A stretch of DNA of 64,000 bases from an uncultured Gammaproteobacteria bacterium. GTDB taxonomy: Bacteria > Pseudomonadota > Gammaproteobacteria > Arenicellales > JAANXG01. The notes under the pieces were generated by a model. It worked only from the letters and a program-made list of their open reading frames with translations, made no database searches and was not told the DNA's origin. Where the stretch lies: the NCBI GenBank assembly GCA_947259395.1, contig CAMYMN010000002.1, positions 102,439 through 166,438 of the forward strand, given 5' to 3'. Below, piece by piece: positions 5,690-60,320 of this stretch (its first letter is position 1; each line of letters begins with the position of its first letter). The translations under genes were made by a program, and so were the position numbers.

Positions 5690-7144
5690 ATGGGCAATCG
5701 GCTCTTCTACGTTGCCGCCGGCCTGACCCTGGTCATCATCGCGATGTTCGCACTGGATATCTGGATGGTTGTAGCGGGCGTCTGGCCGCCGCTGGTGACA
5801 GTCATTGTTTTCGCGCTGCAGTGCCTGATGCTGGTCAGCATCGTCTGGGGGGCGTACTCGCTGCTGGATCTGCGCGTGTTTCGCCCGCTGCACTTGATCA
5901 AAGACCAGGTAAAAATCGTCACCCACATCGACAGTGAATACCGCTTTGAGCTCCCGGAAAAGCACTACTTGGGAGACCTGCCGAAATGCGCGGAAGAACT
6001 GGGGCAATCACTGGCGCGCGAACGCGGGGAAACGGCGCGCGCGATGGAGTCGGCGGCAGATCGCGTAGATCAGCGTAAGGCGCGCCTGGAGGCGATCTTG
6101 CACGATCTGACCGAAGGCGTTGTGGTGTGCACGCTCAATCACCTGATTGTGTTATTCAATCAGGCCGCGGCGTCGCTGCTGCAGGACGCCGGTCCGTTGG
6201 GTCTGCACCGCTCGGTTACCGCATTGTTCGAGGGTGACGACATCGAGCACCACCTCAAAACAATGCTCGCACGGTATTATCACACCGACGAGGTGGACAT
6301 CGGTGAATTCGGATGCCGGCTCGCGGGGTCCGCCGCGGGCAGGGTGGCGGTGCGCATGAACTTGATTATCGATCCGGACGGCAGCTGCTCCGGCTATGTG
6401 CTGTCATTGGCCGGGAAGGGGCTATTGCGTATCGAACGGCATAAAGACAGCGGGGTCAGTGTATTGACCGATCGTCCCGAGTTCTACGATTTCTCCCTTT
6501 TCGACCGCGACGCCCCGGGGGAGTTGATGGACAGCAACCTCCTGGAGCTCGACTATGTGGTGTTCGATACCGAGACCACCGGCCTCAATCCGTCGAAAGG
6601 TGACGAAATCGTTCAGATTTCCGGTGTGCGGGTGATCAACAACCGCGTCCTCGAGAGTGACCATTTCGACATTCTGGTGAATCCCAGAGTACCGATTCCC
6701 AAGCAATCGATTCGATTCCACGGCATCACCGACGACATGGTGACCGACGCACCCGGGATTTGCGAGGCGCTGAATATGTTTCACGAGTTTACACGGGATG
6801 CGGTGCTGGTCGCCCACAATGCGGCCTTTGACATGAAATTCATAAAGCTCAAAGAGAGCTCTTGCGGTGTGGCCTTCGACCATCCGGTGCTGGACACCTT
6901 GCTGTTGTCGTTCGTACTGCAACCCAATCACAGCGTGCACACACTCGATGCGATCGCCGCACGTTTTGGAATCGAAATCAAACCGGAGCTTCGCCACACC
7001 GCTCTAGGGGACTCACAGGCCACGGCAGAGATATTTGTCAGAATGCTAACGGCACTCGAACAGCAGGGAATGTTCTCGTTGAGAGAGGCGATTGAGGCGT
7101 CGAACCAGGTGTTCGAGATCCGCCGACTTCAAGAGCAGCATTGA
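5690..7144 (+). CDS. membrane-anchored PAS-like / DEDDh 3'-5' exonuclease (DNA polymerase III epsilon-like)
   Basis: The ORF track begins inside srkA; the ATG at 5690 (MGNRLFYVAAG) is preferred because two membrane helices follow at once (residues about 5-27 and 35-58). After a coiled region, residues about 130-250 look PAS-like (LEAILHDLTEGVVVCTLNHLIVLFNQAA). The C-terminal third is a DnaQ/PolC-type exonuclease: VVFDTETTGL (Exo I), AHNAAFDMKF (Exo II) and HTALGDSQAT (Exo III) carry the DEDDh residues. Protein length is 484. It faces the CBS-DUF294 gene tail to tail, and I recall related genes sitting near DUF294 genes in other proteobacteria. The role is unknown; a signal-responsive nuclease at the membrane is an inference. 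Confidence 0.85.
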   Translation: MGNRLFYVAAGLTLVIIAMFALDIWMVVAGVWPPLVTVIVFALQCLMLVSIVWGAYSLLDLRVFRPLHLIKDQVKIVTHIDSEYRFELPEKHYLGDLPKCAEELGQSLARERGETARAMESAADRVDQRKARLEAILHDLTEGVVVCTLNHLIVLFNQAAASLLQDAGPLGLHRSVTALFEGDDIEHHLKTMLARYYHTDEVDIGEFGCRLAGSAAGRVAVRMNLIIDPDGSCSGYVLSLAGKGLLRIERHKDSGVSVLTDRPEFYDFSLFDRDAPGELMDSNLLELDYVVFDTETTGLNPSKGDEIVQISGVRVINNRVLESDHFDILVNPRVPIPKQSIRFHGITDDMVTDAPGICEALNMFHEFTRDAVLVAHNAAFDMKFIKLKESSCGVAFDHPVLDTLLLSFVLQPNHSVHTLDAIAARFGIEIKPELRHTALGDSQATAEIFVRMLTALEQQGMFSLREAIEASNQVFEIRRLQEQH

Positions 7145-7236
7145 TCCGCATCCTGCAACAAGGCGGCACACGAACGGCCGGCGCTGTCGCTAATCAAGAC
7201 TGCTATCGATGTGCCGGGGGTGAACGACCCTGGGTG

Positions 7237-51955: not shown

Positions 51956-54649
51956 ATGAATAAAGCTAAAAAACTCATACTCGTAGACGGATCCTCGTAC
52001 CTGTACCGGGCGTTTCATGCCCTGCCCAAGCTCGCAAGCTCGTCCGGCGAGCCCACCGGAGCGGTGTACGGTGTTATCAACATGATCCGGCGGTTGCTGG
52101 CCGATCATGACCCCGGCTACGTGGCGATCGTATTCGACGCCAAGGGCAAAACATTTCGCCACCACCTATATCCCCAGTACAAGGCCACGCGCCCGCCGAT
52201 GCCCGACGAACTCCGGCAACAGATTCCGGTATTGCACGAATTGATCCGGGCACTGGGATTACCATTGCTCATCATTGATGATGTGGAAGCGGATGACGTC
52301 ATCGCTACTTTGGCATTGCAGGCCTCAGAGCAGGGGCTGGATACCATTGTGTCGACCGGTGACAAGGATCTCGCCCAGATCGTTAATAACCACGTGAGCC
52401 TGGTGGACACCATGCGCAACACGGTGTACGACCGAGACGCTGTGGAGAACAAATATGGTGTGCCACCAGAGCGAATTGTGGACTATCTCGCGCTGATTGG
52501 TGATACATCCGACAATGTCCCCGGGGTGGCGAAGGTTGGCCCAAAGACGGCCCAGAAATGGCTGCATCAATACGGTTCGTTGGACACGCTTATCGAACAC
52601 GCGGACGAGATCGCCGGTAAGGTCGGCGCCAACCTGCGTGACAGCTTGGATGTACTGCCCTTATCCCGGCAGTTGGTGACGGTGAAACGCGATGTGAAGC
52701 TCGATGTTGATCCCACGGATCTTCGCGCTGATCCGGCGGATAAAGACAAGCTGAAAAAATTGTATGCGCGCCTGGAATTTCAAAGCTGGTTGGCGGAGTT
52801 GGGCGGGCTCAGCGGTGGGCCCGGGGACGATGACATCAGGGGGGACTACATCGTTATCACCGATGAGTCGGCGTTGGACGCATGGCTCGAGCGTCTTGTC
52901 GATGCGCCGTTGTTTGCGTTTGACACCGAGACCACGTCGCTGGATGCCGTGTCTGCGGAATTAGTGGGGGTGTCATTTTCGGTGCGGGCCGGCGAGGCCG
53001 CTTATGTGCCGTTCGGACACGATTACGCCGATGCACCACAGCAGCTTTCGCGGCAAATGGTTCTGAGAAAGTTGTCGGCGCTGCTGGAAGACGCAACACA
53101 GCGCAAAGTCGGACAAAACTTGAAATACGATCACTGCGTGCTCGTTGGCTACGATATAGAGCTGCGCGGTATCGCATTTGACACCATGTTGGAATCCTAT
53201 GTGCTGGATAGCGTGGCCAATCGCCACGATATGGACACCTTGGCGTTGAAGCATCTGGGCCACAAGACCATCACGTTCGAGGACATCGCCGGCAAAGGAA
53301 AATCGCAGCTGACGTTCAATCAAATCGACATTGATGAGGCGGCGCAGTATGCCGCGGAGGATGCGGACATCACCTTGCGCCTGCATAAAGCGTTGTGGCC
53401 GAAACTCGAGGCGGAGCCGATGCTCCGGGATTTGTTCGCGAACATAGAGATACCTTTGGTACCGGTATTGTCCCGAATCGAACGTCGCGGCGTAAAGATT
53501 GATACGAACATGCTTGCCCAACAAAGTGACGAGCTCAAGGATAGAATCGCAACTTTGGAGATCCAGACCCACGCCGCCGCCGGTGGACCGTTCAACCTCG
53601 CGTCTCCCAAGCAGATCCAGGAAGTATTGTATGAACGCCTGAAGTTGCCGGTGTTGCGCAAGACCCCTAAGGGGCAGCCGTCCACCGCCGAAAACGTGCT
53701 GCAAGAACTCGCGGTTGACTATGATCTGCCGCAACTCATCCTCGAACACCGCGCGCTCAGCAAGTTGAAGTCGACCTATACCGACAAACTGCCGGAGATG
53801 ATCAACCCCAAAACCGGACGCGTGCACACCTCCTACCATCAAGCGGTGGCGGCGACCGGACGTTTGTCGTCGGCGGATCCCAATCTACAAAATATTCCAG
53901 TACGCACCGCGGAAGGTCGGCGCATCCGGGAGGCGTTTGTAGCACAGCCCGGCGATGTCATCCTGTCGGCGGATTATTCGCAAATAGAGCTGCGTATTAT
54001 GGCGCATCTATCTCAGGATCCTGGCTTGCTGCAGGCATATGATGAGGGTGCAGATATCCATCGGGCGACGGCCGCAGAGGTGTTCGGATTACCTCCGCAA
54101 GATGTCAACGACGAACAGCGGCGGCATGCGAAAGCGATTAACTTCGGCTTGATATATGGTATGTCGGCGTTCGGCTTGGCCCGTCAGTTACGTATCGATC
54201 GCACCGCTGCCCAGGAATATGTCAACCTGTATTTTGCGCGTTACCCCGGAGTGAAACGTTTCATGGACGAGACCCGCGCACGTGCCCACGAACGCGGTTA
54301 TGTCGAGACCGTATTTGGCAGACGCCTGTATTTGCCGGAGATTAATGCCAGTAATCACGCACGGCGTCAGTATGCGGAACGCACCGCGATAAACGCGCCG
54401 ATGCAGGGTACGGCCGCGGATTTGATCAAGATGGCGATGCTGGTGATCGACGACTGGATCCGCGAAAATGACAAAGCCCTGCGGATGATTATGCAAGTAC
54501 ACGACGAATTGGTGTTTGAGGTCCCCGAATCCGAGCTCGAACAAGCCGGCGGCGAGATTGCACGGTTGATGGGGGGCGTCGCACAACTGACGGTACCACT
54601 TGAGGTGGATGTCGGCAGCGGCCCGAATTGGGCGTACGCTCATCCCTGA
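51956..54649 (+). CDS. polA: DNA polymerase I
   Basis: PolA fills gaps in repair and removes Okazaki primers. The 897-residue protein has all three domains: the 5' nuclease (residues about 1-290, DGSSYLYRAFHALP, DVEADDVIATLA), a 3'-5' exonuclease with intact acidic residues (FDTETTSLD, AAEDADITLRLH), and the family A polymerase (from about 500; SADYSQIELRIMAHLSQD, AKAINFGLIYGM, QVHDELVFEVP). The proofreading domain therefore looks active. It starts just after a repeat end. Confidence 0.98.
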   Translation: MNKAKKLILVDGSSYLYRAFHALPKLASSSGEPTGAVYGVINMIRRLLADHDPGYVAIVFDAKGKTFRHHLYPQYKATRPPMPDELRQQIPVLHELIRALGLPLLIIDDVEADDVIATLALQASEQGLDTIVSTGDKDLAQIVNNHVSLVDTMRNTVYDRDAVENKYGVPPERIVDYLALIGDTSDNVPGVAKVGPKTAQKWLHQYGSLDTLIEHADEIAGKVGANLRDSLDVLPLSRQLVTVKRDVKLDVDPTDLRADPADKDKLKKLYARLEFQSWLAELGGLSGGPGDDDIRGDYIVITDESALDAWLERLVDAPLFAFDTETTSLDAVSAELVGVSFSVRAGEAAYVPFGHDYADAPQQLSRQMVLRKLSALLEDATQRKVGQNLKYDHCVLVGYDIELRGIAFDTMLESYVLDSVANRHDMDTLALKHLGHKTITFEDIAGKGKSQLTFNQIDIDEAAQYAAEDADITLRLHKALWPKLEAEPMLRDLFANIEIPLVPVLSRIERRGVKIDTNMLAQQSDELKDRIATLEIQTHAAAGGPFNLASPKQIQEVLYERLKLPVLRKTPKGQPSTAENVLQELAVDYDLPQLILEHRALSKLKSTYTDKLPEMINPKTGRVHTSYHQAVAATGRLSSADPNLQNIPVRTAEGRRIREAFVAQPGDVILSADYSQIELRIMAHLSQDPGLLQAYDEGADIHRATAAEVFGLPPQDVNDEQRRHAKAINFGLIYGMSAFGLARQLRIDRTAAQEYVNLYFARYPGVKRFMDETRARAHERGYVETVFGRRLYLPEINASNHARRQYAERTAINAPMQGTAADLIKMAMLVIDDWIRENDKALRMIMQVHDELVFEVPESELEQAGGEIARLMGGVAQLTVPLEVDVGSGPNWAYAHP

Positions 54650-54820: not shown

Positions 54821-56470
54821 ATGCTCCGTAGCGTTCGAGCGAATATACATTCCGTAATCCTAGCCGGGTGGCTGCTGTGCGGCCCATCATTTGCTCAAGA
54901 TGACCCGATGCAACAGGCGATCACCGCGTATGAAGCGGGTGAATTCGTTAAGGCTGGCCAGCTGTGGGAACCGTTGGCTAACGAGGGCGACGCCCAGGCG
55001 CAATATTCCATTGCTGTGTTGTACCACAAGGGCCAAGGTCGCCCTGCCGATTTCGGTCAGGCGCTGGACTGGTACCGAAAGGCGGCAGAGCAAAATCACG
55101 TCAACTCACTTTTCAACCTCGGCGTCGCCTATTGGGAGGGACGCGGGGTTGCCCGTAATTTGCAAGACGCGGTTCAGTGGTGGCGCCGCGCCGCGGAACT
55201 CGAGTACGGGGCCGCGCAACACAATCTGGCAACGGCCTATTACCTCGGGCAAGGCGCGGAAAAAAACGTCGAAGAGGCGATTACCTGGTTTCGCAAGGCC
55301 TCTGATAACGGCTACACGCGGGCGGACAAAGCGCTGAACGTCATCGAGAATAAATATCCGCAGTTGTTTGCCAAGGCCGCATCCCCGATGAGTTCCGACG
55401 TCCCGCAGCAAGCGGTTAGCGCCGCGGCCGCGCCGGAAGCATCCGCAGCCACCGCGTCGATACCTGCCACGGTCATGCCCGCGGAGCCCTTGGCACCGGA
55501 GCAAACTGCGCGTGTAGCGCCGGCGCCGGAACCGTCAACGCCAACCGAAACCGGCAGCGTGAAACCGGCGACGCAAATGAGCGGACAAAACGTCGCGCGC
55601 ATCGGCGAGCAGGGTGCGAAAGCCTACCCGTTCTATCGCGACTCCCTCCCGGCGCTTGAAGAGTTGGCGCCGGGCAGCCCGATTCGCGTCCTGCTCCGGC
55701 ACCAGGACTGGGTGTATGTTCAAGTGCCCGACGGTTTCGAGATGTGGGTTTACGGTCGTTATGTAACCGGCGAAAGCGGCACGGGTACGATCAACAACGC
55801 GAGCGTACGGGCGCGGCCGCTGCCCTCGACCGCGAGCGCCTCCTACCCGTTGGGAACTTTCAATGAAGGCGAAACAGTTGACGTGCTCGCGGTGCAGGGA
55901 GACTGGAAAAGGGTGCGCGGCCCGCAGCGATTGGGTGCGTGGGTCAAGGCGCAGGACGTGGAGCTGGGGGCGATGGCTCAGGCGCGGGGCGCCACACCAG
56001 AGGCGGTGCCCGATATGGTTGCCGAAGCCGCGGCTGCGACCCCGGTAACAGCCGCCGACACCGCGGCTGACGCGGTAATGCGAGTGGCACAGGGAGGCGC
56101 CAAGATCTATCCATTTCATCGCGAAACCCTGCCCGAGATCGGTGAATTGTTGCCGCATACCACCGTGCGGTTAGTGGTTCGCCAGGGAGACTGGGTGTAT
56201 GTACAGGTTCCTGGAGGACTCGAGGTGTGGGTGTACGGCCGCTATGTGGACGGAGAGAGTGGCCAGGGAACGGTTAATGCTGCAGACGTACGCGCCAGGC
56301 CGGTACCGTCGACCGCCCGCAACTCCTATCCGTTAGGCACATTCAACAAGGGGGAATCTGTGGAGGTGCTGGAGGTGCAAGGAAAATGGAAGAAGGTTCG
56401 CGCCCCGGAGCGTTTGGGCGCCTGGGTCAAAGCGGCGGACGTAGTTGCCGGTGACAATCGTGAGTCGTAA
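54821..56470 (+). CDS. secreted Sel1-repeat protein with two duplicated SH3-like modules
   Basis: The 549-residue protein starts with a signal peptide ending GPSFA-QDD. Residues about 30-180 hold three or four Sel1/TPR-like repeats of 36 residues (AQYSIAVLYHKGQG, LFNLGVAYWEGRG, HNLATAYYLGQG). A Pro/Ala-rich linker follows, then two copies of a module of about 120 residues with paired SH3-like segments (DWVYVQVPDGFEMWVYGRYV and DWVYVQVPGGLEVWVYGRYV), about two-thirds identical. SH3b domains often bind peptidoglycan, so a periplasmic envelope role is likely but unproven. Confidence 0.85.
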   Translation: MLRSVRANIHSVILAGWLLCGPSFAQDDPMQQAITAYEAGEFVKAGQLWEPLANEGDAQAQYSIAVLYHKGQGRPADFGQALDWYRKAAEQNHVNSLFNLGVAYWEGRGVARNLQDAVQWWRRAAELEYGAAQHNLATAYYLGQGAEKNVEEAITWFRKASDNGYTRADKALNVIENKYPQLFAKAASPMSSDVPQQAVSAAAAPEASAATASIPATVMPAEPLAPEQTARVAPAPEPSTPTETGSVKPATQMSGQNVARIGEQGAKAYPFYRDSLPALEELAPGSPIRVLLRHQDWVYVQVPDGFEMWVYGRYVTGESGTGTINNASVRARPLPSTASASYPLGTFNEGETVDVLAVQGDWKRVRGPQRLGAWVKAQDVELGAMAQARGATPEAVPDMVAEAAAATPVTAADTAADAVMRVAQGGAKIYPFHRETLPEIGELLPHTTVRLVVRQGDWVYVQVPGGLEVWVYGRYVDGESGQGTVNAADVRARPVPSTARNSYPLGTFNKGESVEVLEVQGKWKKVRAPERLGAWVKAADVVAGDNRES

Positions 56471-56507
56471 TTTATTCGTGTTGCAGGGATAATACCGACG
56501 CGTTTTA

Positions 56508-57638
56508 ATGGATCATGACTGTAAGCGAGAAACGGTGAATAGACGACCAATGTTCACAGCCGCGTGGTTCAGCCTTGTGTTGCTCATGCTTGGTTTGGTG
56601 ACGATCACCGTGTCCGCCGCGGCGAATCACGACCAGGAGCTGCGTAATATCGAGGCGCTGATCGATGCCGGCAAACCCCGCCTGGCGGTGAACTACGCCG
56701 GTCGCTACGTCAACAGGAATCCGGAGGACCCTAGGGCGCTTTTTTTGATGGCCCGCGCCGAGGAGAAGGCGGGTCACCTCGGTAAGGCAACCAAGATCTA
56801 TGAGCGGCTGATTCGTGAGTACCCTCGCCTGCCGGAACCATTTATCAATCTCGCGGCCATCTATGCCAACGCGGAGCAATACGAGAAAGCGCGGCGGCTA
56901 CTGGTAGCGGCGCTGAACACCGATTCGATATATGCGAAGGTCTATGAGGGTTTGATTAATCTCCATGCAACCATGGCGAGCCAGGCCTACAAAAATGCGT
57001 TGTTATTGGATGGCGAGGCGGTAAAACCCAATCCCAGTACAGTGAACGCGTTGATTTCCTGGTCAGCCGAGACACGTCCCGATACCTTAATTGCGCAGGG
57101 CGAGCCGTCGCCACCCGCGAGTCGGCCCAAGGGTGTGGGCGTGTCCGCGGACGATGCAAAAGTTAAGCCGGCACCAGCGATTACCGAGCCCGTCAAGGTA
57201 GCCATTCGCCCCGCGAATCCAATCAACAACGGGCAGTTGATTAACCAGGCCACGCCTGATCCGAAGCCGGTGGCATTACGGTCAAAACCAGTCCGTGATG
57301 ATCGCGAGGAACTGGAAACTACAGTTAAAAACTGGGCTGAAGCGTGGTCACGCCGGGATGTTGGACGATACCTATCATTCTATAGTGCCCGATTTCGTCC
57401 CACTGCTGGTGTATCTCGAAAACAATGGAAACAGCAACGCGAACTGCGTATTTCCGCCAAAAAAGAAATCCACATTGAGTTGTCCGATTTCAATACATCA
57501 GTAAATGGACGCACCGCTACGGTGTTGTTCTTGCAGGCCTATAAATCCGATACATTCAGGGATGTGGTTCGCAAAAAGCTCGTCCTCGAGCGTGGTGCAG
57601 GGGGTTGGAAGATCGTTCGCGAAACTACCGTGAGCTGA
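56508..57638 (+). CDS. membrane-anchored or secreted TPR protein with NTF2-like C-terminal domain
   Basis: The 376-residue protein has one hydrophobic N-terminal segment (FTAAWFSLVLLMLGLVTITVSA), a TPR region (LFLMARAEEKAGHLGKATKIYERLI and EPFINLAAIYANAEQYEKARRLL), a Pro-rich linker and a C-terminal domain beginning ELETTVKNWAEAWSRRDVGRYLSFYS. That last part is an SnoaL/NTF2-like fold seen at the C-terminus of some L,D-transpeptidases and TPR proteins. GTG 56535 and ATG 56550 are alternative starts. It lies 37 bases after the Sel1/SH3 gene and probably shares its transcript. Confidence 0.8.
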   Translation: MDHDCKRETVNRRPMFTAAWFSLVLLMLGLVTITVSAAANHDQELRNIEALIDAGKPRLAVNYAGRYVNRNPEDPRALFLMARAEEKAGHLGKATKIYERLIREYPRLPEPFINLAAIYANAEQYEKARRLLVAALNTDSIYAKVYEGLINLHATMASQAYKNALLLDGEAVKPNPSTVNALISWSAETRPDTLIAQGEPSPPASRPKGVGVSADDAKVKPAPAITEPVKVAIRPANPINNGQLINQATPDPKPVALRSKPVRDDREELETTVKNWAEAWSRRDVGRYLSFYSARFRPTAGVSRKQWKQQRELRISAKKEIHIELSDFNTSVNGRTATVLFLQAYKSDTFRDVVRKKLVLERGAGGWKIVRETTVS

Positions 57639-57687
57639 TTGTTTACATCGACTTGTTTGTGACCCGCTGTGCTTGCATCTAAGTGGG

Positions 57688-58013
57688 CTAGTCCGAATAT
57701 TGCATCAGTATCCGGTAAACTGGCGCACACTGCGACTCCGCGCAGCACAAGGGACAGGGGCGGCTGAACCCCCTGCTGCGCTTGTGCTGCGCATAGTCGC
57801 AGTGCGAGGACAAGCACTGCAACGACACCAGCACAAGCGCCGGACTGGAGCGAAAGTCATAGCCGTAACTATGGCTTGAGCGAAGTCCAAGTGCAGGCGT
57901 ACCCGGACCAGCCAGAGCCCGGATAGGACACCGACCGTGTACAAAACGTACCCGGGCCAAGTGCTCTAGCTTCGGTATACAAAAACGGCCGACTGGTGCA
58001 ATATGCGGGCTAG
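57688..58013. mobile_element. 326-bp inverted-repeat element (MITE-like), second complete copy
   Basis: The left end CTAGTCCGAATATTGCATC and the right end TGGTGCAATATGCGGGCTAG are inverted repeats matching at about 19 of 22 positions. Both left ends in the window continue with ATCC...CTGGCGC. The segment 57857-57927 (CATAGCCGTAACTATGG, then CGTACCCGGACCAGCC) is shared with the copy at 26259-26505. It lies in the gap between two convergent genes, 49 bases after the TPR gene, and has no coding capacity. Confidence 0.8.
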
Positions 58014-58122
58014 TTGATCAATAACGGTCAGGGACGGCGCAGAAGCAGCAATACCAACGCACGGACCACACCGGAACGTGGCGTGTTGTACGCGCGGGAT
58101 GCGGTTAGTCAGGTAAGGACCA

Positions 58123-59289
58123 CTACTTCCCTTCCGGGTAGGGGTTGGCCTGGTCAATCAGTGCGGTCCCGGTCCTTGCCGTTTTTATCTTCGGCACATT
58201 TCGTTGTAGCCAATACACTAAATCCACCCACATGTGCGTGACTTGCTGCGAACTGGGCATCACGTAGGCGTGCGGCATTTCCAGTGTGACCACAGGAATA
58301 CCTTTGTGGACGCCCGCGTAGTTACCCAGAGAACCCGGGAACGTGCCGAGGAAGTCTCGATACAAAATACCGATGCGGTGCGGCGCCGAACGGCGGTCGA
58401 GCGCATCGTAATCGACGATGCCGTGGGGCGCGTGCACACTTACAATTATATCCGGCTCGAAACGGTCAATTTGTTCGACCAGCCATTGAGTTTCCGGTTC
58501 GCTGCCTGGTGCTTTGCCCGGGTAGCGACGTGGATCGCGTCCCGTGGTGTTCACCCAGTAATTTCTACTCAAACGTGGCCACTCCGGCGTTGGAAGATTG
58601 CGATTCAAATCTATGCCGTTAGCATTGGTCCGCGTCGATTTGTTCACCAGCAGCCCGTCGGGATTGAGCAACGGCGTGATTCGCCAATGAAACATTCCCG
58701 TGTGATAGCGCCTCAGCTTGTGCATCCATATGAATACCGAGCTGATCGACGTCAACTCATCAGCATGCGTGCCGCCAATCAAGAGCACCCGGCCAAGTGG
58801 CTTCCGATTGGACATGGGTGGAAACTCGCGCACCAATATAGGCAGTTTGTTTGCCGAATAGTATTCCGCCGGTCTTAAATCGAGCGACACACAGTCGTTG
58901 AGATTTACGCTCGCGAGTTTGTTTGCTATTCCTCGGCAGGTTTGTGACACCTGCTGTTGATGATCTGCTGTCAATGGTGGTGGTGGGGGGAGAAGTGGAT
59001 GTGCCTCGGTGGTGACTGTCGGTGTGTCGGTTTGCTGTTCGCTTGGTAGGTGCGCAGCCATTTTGGTCGCCGCTTTTTCAACGGGTTTTACGGCCGTTTC
59101 TTCAATCCGCCGAGGTTTCGGTGCCGGTGAGGTCGGCGGCGCACTGCTGGGTGAGCGAGCTGGTTGTGTGGCCGCTGCCGATGATGCCGTGTCGGGTGGT
59201 GGTGAAACGGACGGCGACCACGTAGCGCACGCCCCCACCAGAAGCAGTGGCGCGACAACGATAAGATATGCGATCGGCGGGCAGTTCAC
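58123..59289 (-). CDS. M14-family zinc carboxypeptidase-like lipoprotein
   Basis: The 388-residue protein starts with a lipoprotein signal (PPIAYLIVVAPLLLVGAC), then a long Pro/Ser/Thr-rich tether, then an M14 domain. Zinc ligands appear in GGTHADE (H and E) and in VSVHAPHG (H). LNRNLPTPEW corresponds to the substrate-arginine region and VTLEMPHA carries the catalytic Glu. This resembles MpaA-type amidases that trim peptidoglycan peptides, so an envelope anchored enzyme is plausible. It is leftward and convergent with the TPR gene. Confidence 0.85.
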   Translation of the reverse strand: MNCPPIAYLIVVAPLLLVGACATWSPSVSPPPDTASSAAATQPARSPSSAPPTSPAPKPRRIEETAVKPVEKAATKMAAHLPSEQQTDTPTVTTEAHPLLPPPPPLTADHQQQVSQTCRGIANKLASVNLNDCVSLDLRPAEYYSANKLPILVREFPPMSNRKPLGRVLLIGGTHADELTSISSVFIWMHKLRRYHTGMFHWRITPLLNPDGLLVNKSTRTNANGIDLNRNLPTPEWPRLSRNYWVNTTGRDPRRYPGKAPGSEPETQWLVEQIDRFEPDIIVSVHAPHGIVDYDALDRRSAPHRIGILYRDFLGTFPGSLGNYAGVHKGIPVVTLEMPHAYVMPSSQQVTHMWVDLVYWLQRNVPKIKTARTGTALIDQANPYPEGK

Positions 59290-59533
59290 GTTTTAAGGAT
59301 AGCAGACGAATGCTTATGTTGTTACTAGAACTATGCCGCGCTACCTATTGTTTGTAAATAGGTAGTCCGGGGTGGGACTCGCATCGTACTGATGCTCGGG
59401 GATGTTGTTGGGGGGACGCCCCACCCCGGACGACCTTTAATCGAAACCGACTATAGATTATCCCCCACTCGAAGCACGGCGTCAGCCAGGTCGCTGGATT
59501 TGTTGCAATTATTAACGATATCCGTTTGCGATT
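59290..59533. other. intergenic region with a long-range hairpin
   Basis: This gap lies between the M14 gene start and the candidate small RNA promoter. AGGTAGTCCGGGGTGGG (59360-59376) pairs with CCCACCCCGGACGACCT (59420-59436) over 17 positions with one mismatch, and encloses the small stem GCATC-gtact-GATGC. A competing hairpin GGGG-ggacg-CCCC overlaps the distal arm. It may be a structured leader of the M14 gene on the minus strand or a repeat; there is no poly-T tail. Confidence 0.5.
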
Positions 59534-59561
59534 GGAACTTATTCCCGACGAACTGGTCTCA
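59534..59561 (+). promoter_or_regulatory. candidate sigma-E (AlgU/RpoE) promoter of a small RNA
   Basis: GGAACTT (59534-59540) is the consensus extracytoplasmic-stress -35 element, and TCTCA (59557-59561) follows after 16 bases, one mismatch from TCTGA. The predicted transcript start is about 59568. No protein gene begins downstream on this strand before the terminator. Confidence 0.6.
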
Positions 59562-59567
59562 ATTAAC

Positions 59568-59686
59568 TAGGATAACGTGGAAGTTGTCCTCCCGCTTACC
59601 CTCCCTGAGCGGGCAGATTCTGTTCATCGCGGAATCGAAGCGTTATGGCCCCGGAATGTCCTCCCCTTGCGTCCGGGGCATTTTTC
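59568..59686 (+). ncRNA. candidate small RNA at the Spot 42 / ErsA position
   Basis: The predicted transcript of about 119 nt starts after a sigma-E-type promoter. It contains the hairpin CCCGCT-taccctccctg-AGCGGG (59591-59613) with a C-rich loop, and ends in GCCCCGGA...TCCGGGGC-aTTTTT. The terminator loop also holds CCTCCCC. C/U-rich loops like these pair with ribosome binding sites. Spot 42 in enterics and ErsA in Pseudomonas lie between polA and engB, the same general location as here; ErsA is sigma-22 dependent. Homology is inferred from position, promoter and structure, not alignment. Confidence 0.6.
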
Positions 59687-60320
59687 TTTGTGTATGCGTT
59701 AGCCATTGAACTAATACTTGTTGCGCTTGTGAGCAACCGGTTCGTTTTAGCGACGAGAAGAGTTGTACGGAAACCGTATTAGACAAACCACCGAGCTGTA
59801 CCGTCACTTCACGCAGTGTCCGCAGTGCCTTGCTACGGCTGAGCTTGTCGGATTTGGTCAACAAGACGTGTACTGTCAGGTCCACGCCCTCACTCCACTC
59901 CAACATTTGACGGTCGAGAACCGTTAGCGGGTGGCGAATGTCCATCAGCAATATCAAGCCGCCAAGACTCGACCGCGTGCCTAGAAACTGCTCTATGACA
60001 TGCCGCCAATGCCGCCGCAGTGATTCTGACACCTTCGCATAGCCGTATCCAGGTAAGTCCACCAAACGGCGGTCACCGTCAAGGCGGAAGAACACGATTT
60101 GCTGCGTGCGTCCTGGGATCTTGCTGGTACGGGCCAGGCCACGCCGATTGGTAATGGTATTAATGGCGCTGGATTTCCCGACATTTGATCGTCCTGCAAA
60201 CGCAACTTCAACGCCGTGGTCCGGCGGCCATTGATCAGGGTTGTGGGCGCTGATCAAGAACTGCGGATGTTGTAACAATGGCGGCAGAATCGGTTCGTTG
60301 ATCATGATAGCGGTGGTCAT
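59643..60320 (-). CDS. engB: ribosome biogenesis GTP-binding protein EngB (YihA/YsxC)
   Basis: EngB is an essential GTPase needed for late large-subunit assembly. The 225-residue protein has GRSNVGKSSAIN (G1), the G3 region VDLPGYGYAKVS and the G4 motif LTKSDK. The start may be the ATG at 60320 or the in-frame ATG at 60305. The last roughly 14 residues (RKMPRTQGEDIPGP) are encoded opposite the small RNA terminator and look like a non-conserved tail. It is divergent from cytochrome c4, a pairing I recall from other gammaproteobacteria. Confidence 0.96.
   Translation of the reverse strand: MTTAIMINEPILPPLLQHPQFLISAHNPDQWPPDHGVEVAFAGRSNVGKSSAINTITNRRGLARTSKIPGRTQQIVFFRLDGDRRLVDLPGYGYAKVSESLRRHWRHVIEQFLGTRSSLGGLILLMDIRHPLTVLDRQMLEWSEGVDLTVHVLLTKSDKLSRSKALRTLREVTVQLGGLSNTVSVQLFSSLKRTGCSQAQQVLVQWLTHTQRKMPRTQGEDIPGP
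59648..59686 (+). terminator. Rho-independent terminator of the candidate small RNA
   Basis: GCCCCGGA (59648-59655) pairs with TCCGGGGC (59672-59679), 8 perfect GC-rich pairs with a 16-base loop, followed by ATTTTTC. It overlaps the 3' end of the convergent engB coding frame. Confidence 0.75.

Follow-up and report, generated by a model that had tools for sequence, protein, structure and literature searches.

A conserved small RNA gene with a sigma-E-type promoter beside engB that may be a branch of an ancient beta- and gammaproteobacterial polA-engB gene

The authors who described the small RNA (sRNA) sX13 asked if the polA loci of other bacteria also encode sRNAs that work alike (PMC3771888). 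The same question is raised by a 64,000-nt stretch of DNA from an uncultured gammaproteobacterium (the window), in which a preliminary description had placed a sigma-E-driven sRNA candidate on the polA side of engB. We consider it likely, with a probability of about 0.8, that this RNA (the window RNA) is transcribed by RpoE, acts in trans to repress ribosome-binding sites through CCUCCC loops, and is a diverged orthologue of an ancient polA-engB gene.

That the window holds a conserved RNA gene is near certain. As had been described, GGAACTT (59534-59540) and TCTCA (59557-59561) are separated by a 16-nt spacer and are followed by an RNA of about 119 nt with two C-rich loops and a terminator, and we found two hairpins that had gone unmentioned (Table 1). 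The loop of hairpin 2, ACCCUCCCU, is proposed as the main pairing site of the sRNA. The second C-rich loop, AUGUCCUCCCCUUGCG, lies at 59656-59671 within the terminator hairpin, and hairpins 1 and 3 are without C-rich loops. The sRNA folds at -48.8 kcal/mol (z -4.12), and 0 of 200 shuffled sequences were equally stable, which together with the covariation and the 75 copies presented below supports the sRNA reading. A 105-aa open reading frame that runs across the site was ruled out as a protein gene by 1-2 nt indels in relatives, and no conserved reading frame was found in the sRNA region among the relatives compared, in agreement with the original view that no protein gene lies here.

Table 1. 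Positions of the sRNA gene, its parts and its neighbours in the window
Feature	Position	Strand	Evidence
Small RNA gene, about 120 nt	59567..59690	+	Start inferred at about 59567-59569; fold, RF02837 match, model R1 match, covarying copies
-35 element GGAACTT, sigma-E (RpoE) type promoter	59534..59540	+	GGAACTT/A in 9/9 copies of the order
-10 element GTCTCA, same promoter as GGAACTT	59556..59561	+	GTC at spacing 15-16 in most homologues
Hairpin 1 (AGGAUAAC/GUUGUCCU)	59569..59590	+	8/8 pairs compensatory somewhere; 94.2% of cells paired
Hairpin 2 with C-rich loop ACCCUCCCU (loop 59598-59606)	59591..59613	+	Stem 98.4% paired
Hairpin 3 (GAUUCUGU/GCGGAAUC)	59616..59636	+	8/8 pairs compensatory somewhere
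Rho-independent terminator (hairpin 4)	59648..59689	+	Stem 59648-59655/59672-59679; U tract 59680-59689; 99.0% of cells paired
engB/ysxC, convergent neighbour of the sRNA	59643..60320	-	ORF; Pfam MMR_HSR1; conserved synteny
polA	51956..54649	+	Pfam DNA_pol_A; directly beside the RNA in L008 and L009
Three-gene block between polA and the sRNA	54821-59289		Pfam Sel1/SH3, TPR-Cds6_C, M14 peptidase

By DNA similarity, the sRNA was found in 6 of 6 genomes of the genus, in two further genera of the same family and in one genome from a different family of the order, for nine copies in total; five more genomes of the family, from two genera, gave no DNA match. A tenth match (L010) was discarded as a chance match within a coding region. 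A covariance model built from the nine order copies (R1) scored the window RNA at 144.1 bits, with no other match at E ≤ 1 across the 1.2 Mb of host genome searched, and detected 75 copies at 71 loci, most of them with E < 1e-6. In the alignment of these copies, which was fitted to R1 and includes loci chosen by the hairpin 2 pattern (L011-L038), 96.4% of cells were paired compared with 69.5% in shuffles and at most 50% in slid controls, and compensatory change occurred at 29 of 31 pairs (559 such cells; shuffles gave 155 and slid controls no more than 93). Hairpins 1, 3 and 4 lie outside the selecting pattern, and L039-L068 were not chosen by it. The preliminary description had pointed to the C-rich loops, and to the promoter and hairpins of close relatives, as features whose conservation should be checked. 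We found that over the 75 copies the loop CCUCCCU is 92-95% conserved while the stems vary and covary, and that all nine copies of the order retain the promoter.

The RNA is also found well outside the order. A search with the hairpin 2 pattern over 84,980 species genomes returned 28 matches in the window's relatives and in Betaproteobacteria (Nitrosospira/Nitrosovibrio, Rhodocyclaceae, Chitinimonas, Crenobacter and Ferrovum), all 28 of which adjoin engB. An envelope-stress sRNA had been proposed for "this lineage"; the promoter fits the first part of that proposal, and the betaproteobacterial copies remove the confinement to one lineage.

An Rfam search at curated cut-offs gave no match in the window RNA. 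The closest family was anti-hemB (RF02837, Burkholderia RNA 7), which aligned over model positions 1-81 of 81 with 46.8 bits (E 2e-10), 2.7 bits short of the cut-off of 49.5, and took in both the CCUCCCU loop hairpin and the terminator; the copy from another family of the order (L009) scored above the cut-off at 49.6 bits. Since the match is full-length yet below the cut-off, we regard the window RNA as a diverged relative of RF02837 and not as a formal member. Both RNAs have a hairpin of the form CCCGCUU..CCUCCCU.AGCGGG, a second hairpin and a terminator with a C-rich loop, whereas the description of anti-hemB (B. cenocepacia ncS04) is confined to Burkholderia. The best RF02837 copy in the class sample (G166) lies near hemB and has no sigma-E-type promoter, in contrast to the window RNA, which lies beside engB and has one. 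This copy (L076, about 7090-7180) is flanked by a UPF0093 (HemJ-like) gene and by hemB, well away from engB, and its position suggests a branch that was translocated to the vicinity of hemB, in line with the Rfam name.

Across the class, RF02837 matched at E ≤ 0.01 in 154 of 274 genomes, 13 of them above the cut-off; because 5 of 14 unrelated control genomes also gave weak matches, none above the cut-off, we treat the weak matches as unreliable. For the 57 class genomes with RF02837 at E ≤ 1e-5 and a listed engB, the match lay no more than 400 nt 3′ of engB in 44, nearly all convergent, and in most of the 13 others engB and the match were on different contigs. A wider set of 72 genomes, some hand-chosen below the E 1e-5 level, included 55 with engB adjacency; we rely on the 44 of 57 alone. 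The first half of the question posed for sX13 is therefore largely answered: a large proportion of the beta- and gammaproteobacterial genomes sampled have a structured sRNA with a sigma-E-type promoter at engB.

The preliminary description had also likened this locus to that of ErsA and Spot 42. The place itself was confirmed, since the RNA lies 3′ of engB and is adjacent to polA in relatives that lack the three-gene block, and kinship with Spot 42 was not. Spot 42 is under sigma-70/CRP control and has U-rich pairing regions, whereas the window RNA has a sigma-E-type promoter and C-rich loops. Its model (RF00021) matched 0 of 274 genomes, host included, at E ≤ 1e-4, while the E. coli control did match, and it gave none at E ≤ 10 in the window. 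We therefore ruled out kinship with Spot 42, known from Enterobacterales and Vibrionales, which has in common with the window RNA the genomic neighbourhood alone (PMC3771888). The ErsA model (RF01719, Pseudomon-1) likewise had no match in the host genome and none at E ≤ 10 in the window, so that the comparison with these two models, suggested earlier as a check, turned out negative for both, and RF02837 is the closest family.

Elsewhere, the ErsA model matched in 22 genomes, once strongly and 21 times more weakly, and in at least 15 of the 22 the match was 3′ of engB or at the polA-engB locus. Weaker matches in G114, G123, G202, G214, G259 and G324 fell on the same RNA as RF02837. The strong match, in a genome that is Pseudomonas-like by its CrcZ, follows polA (L082) and has the promoter TGAACTT-N16-TCATA; ErsA was not found beside engB in this genome (L073), the polA copy being on another contig. 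ErsA of Pseudomonas aeruginosa resembles the window RNA in its polA-engB locus, promoter type, size (132 nt) and C-rich terminator loop but has a U-rich unstructured domain (PMC8575079). It reduces the porin OprD and other targets, and its effect on anr requires Hfq (PMC8575079).

The sX13 model (RF02232) scored 13.4 bits (E 1.3) in the window. Strong matches occurred in two genomes, there after polA; in G229, G141 and G292 the model matched the loci found by RF02837, and in G196 it matched a locus 3′ of engB. Of two tandem neighbours in G229, one is matched by the sX13 and anti-hemB models and the other by the anti-hemB and ErsA models. sX13 of Xanthomonadaceae is encoded downstream of polA and represses G-rich mRNAs with C-rich apical loops (PMC3771888), and the window RNA shares both the C-rich loops and the polA locus; unlike the window RNA, sX13 has no clear GGAACTT promoter, and it is reported to be Hfq-independent. 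CU-rich loops predicted over ribosome-binding sites are also known from Bordetella S17 and the RF02278 "toxic" double-hairpin RNAs (ncS27) (PMC11722255, PMC5688073), but these occupy other loci and have two hairpins only, and S17S is processed by RNase E; the RF02278 model had no window match at E ≤ 10.

We suggest that ErsA, sX13, anti-hemB and the window RNA probably go back to a single sRNA gene, driven by sigma-E and placed between polA and engB, which already existed before Beta- and Gammaproteobacteria diverged. The likeness to ErsA and sX13 could instead have arisen by convergence among RNAs with C-rich loops that occupy a favoured locus. That the window RNA itself is recognised by neither model fits this alternative, as do the example of Spot 42, which occupies the same locus and is unrelated in sequence, and the tendency of C-rich hairpins to score across families (L074 also matches ar14). 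We nevertheless consider convergence unlikely, though credible, and prefer common descent, because intermediates exist that score significantly with two or three models and share both location and promoter position. In the open literature searched, we found no joint mention of ErsA, sX13 and small RNA, and what is new here is that ErsA, sX13 and anti-hemB, catalogued as separate families, appear to be branches of a single ancient gene linked to engB. If common descent is true, this gene is a core, vertically inherited envelope-stress riboregulator so far hidden under lineage-specific names, and the comparison suggests that part of envelope-stress riboregulation is old and has been inherited vertically. 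As an object the sRNA is of a type already described; more worth pursuing is the wider proposal of a single engB-linked envelope-stress sRNA shared by two proteobacterial classes.

The promoter was scored against GGAACTT-N15/16-GTC (10 positions) in a 62-nt region around each RNA start. All nine order copies reached at least 9/10, with individual scores of 9 or 10, as did 22 of 32 copies in the RF02837 class sample, 14 of 21 in the pattern-selected set and 8 of 13 others, compared with 0.1-0.3% of shuffled controls. When 110 nt were scanned freely, nearly every copy with a score of 8 or more had its best site some 50-60 nt ahead of hairpin 2. GGAACTT-N15/16-GTC agrees with the E. coli RpoE consensus. 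The host genome encodes an RpoE equivalog (318.8 bits) with rseA directly after it, as well as an Hfq equivalog (100.4 bits), and a motif like the sRNA promoter, AGAACTT-N15-GTCCTT, is found upstream of rpoE. The conservation of RNA structure, promoter and place is directly supported, as is the presence of RpoE-RseA and Hfq. From these sequence features, transcription of the sRNA by RpoE is predicted and very likely, and the sigma-E-type promoter originally proposed is upheld.

It is rather improbable that this is a real sRNA of the family transcribed by another ECF or a housekeeping sigma factor and thus not an envelope-stress RNA. Four further RpoE-like ECF sigma factors are present in the host genome, the motif is missing or unrecognisable in some homologues (e.g., L014, L018 and L039), and GGAACTT-N15/16-GTCT is without genome-wide enrichment, with only 4 occurrences in the 4.1-Mb host genome and 6 for the reversed control. 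Because the pattern is so rare, however, its chance origin before a conserved hairpin array would be unexpected, and besides fitting the RpoE consensus, the same motif precedes rpoE itself, as autoregulation would predict. ErsA, which has the same promoter type, is moreover reported to be sigma-22 dependent (PMC8575079). Since the homologues without a recognisable motif include the top-scoring RF02837 match (L039/G166), sigma-E control looks ancestral and lost in some branches.

In the window, polA is 4.9 kb upstream of the sRNA. The preliminary description had counted four genes' worth of sequence between them; the separation is real, and the intervening genes with Pfam matches number three. 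This block is present in the window's genus and absent in L008 and L009, where the RNA directly follows polA. G007 likewise has the M14 gene, together with part of the TPR-Cds6_C gene, beside the RNA, and in a genome of another family (G029) the interval from the TPR-Cds6_C gene to engB yielded no such sRNA. On the other side, the 3′ ends of engB and the sRNA overlap by about 45 nt, and with the conserved convergent placement this could point to a cis-acting antisense RNA or terminator controlling engB, an explanation that is very improbable: most homologues end up to a few hundred nt from engB with no overlap, some in beta lineages (L018, L030) are on the same strand, the L039/G166 copy is away from engB, the U tract is absent in the reverse direction, and the C-rich loops are conserved while the overlap is not, for which reason an antisense role was ruled out.

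Returning to an RpoE-driven, trans-acting RNA, we propose that the stand-alone sRNA gene would be transcribed by RpoE (sigma-E) under envelope stress, on RpoE release. The CCUCCC loops would act as single-stranded anti-Shine-Dalgarno mimics that pair with G-rich ribosome-binding sites of target mRNAs, and pairing, probably with Hfq, would block translation of selected mRNAs. The RNA would be the diverged orthologue of an ancient beta/gammaproteobacterial polA-engB gene with RF02837, ErsA and sX13 branches. For the window RNA we infer transcription, dependence on RpoE and on Hfq, and repression by the loops. A role as an anti-Shine-Dalgarno repressor is plausible by analogy, as sX13 represses mRNAs via C-rich loops at G-rich sites near the start codon (PMC3771888) and a loop mechanism is supported for Bordetella S17, with its CU-rich sites predicted over ribosome-binding sites (PMC11722255). 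Across 1,053 start regions, the loops were predicted to pair no more strongly than their shuffled versions, and the predicted targets showed no enrichment in exported proteins. The top predicted targets were a LivK-like binding protein (AGGAGGACAUU beside AUG) and a lytic transglycosylase (CAAGGGGAG); in relatives, the first site is not conserved and the second in part only. Whether the RNAs also function alike, the second half of the question posed for sX13, can be tested with one promoter and one loop in the tractable hosts Nitrosospira, Chitinimonas and Pseudomonas.

Tandem sRNA arrays were observed beside polA, with five copies in G320 (L075, 6010-6810) and four in G229 (L074, 2150-2950), most of them with their own GAACT-type promoter and terminator, and G165, G206, G208 and G319 have two copies of the RNA each. 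We also found a second conserved structured element at 59362-59435 (+), about 100 nt upstream of the sRNA promoter on the same strand, with an outer stem GUCCGGGGUGGG/CCCACCCCGGAC, an inner hairpin and an invariant GGGGAU core. It had no match in Rfam. The element is present in L002-L007 and at L078:2001-2081 (-), and also in G029, where the sRNA was not found. It occurs in three genera of two families (model R2, E 2e-10 or better), with 5 compensatory pairs, is single-copy in 1.2 Mb of the host genome, and from its sequence is possibly an undescribed RNA motif.
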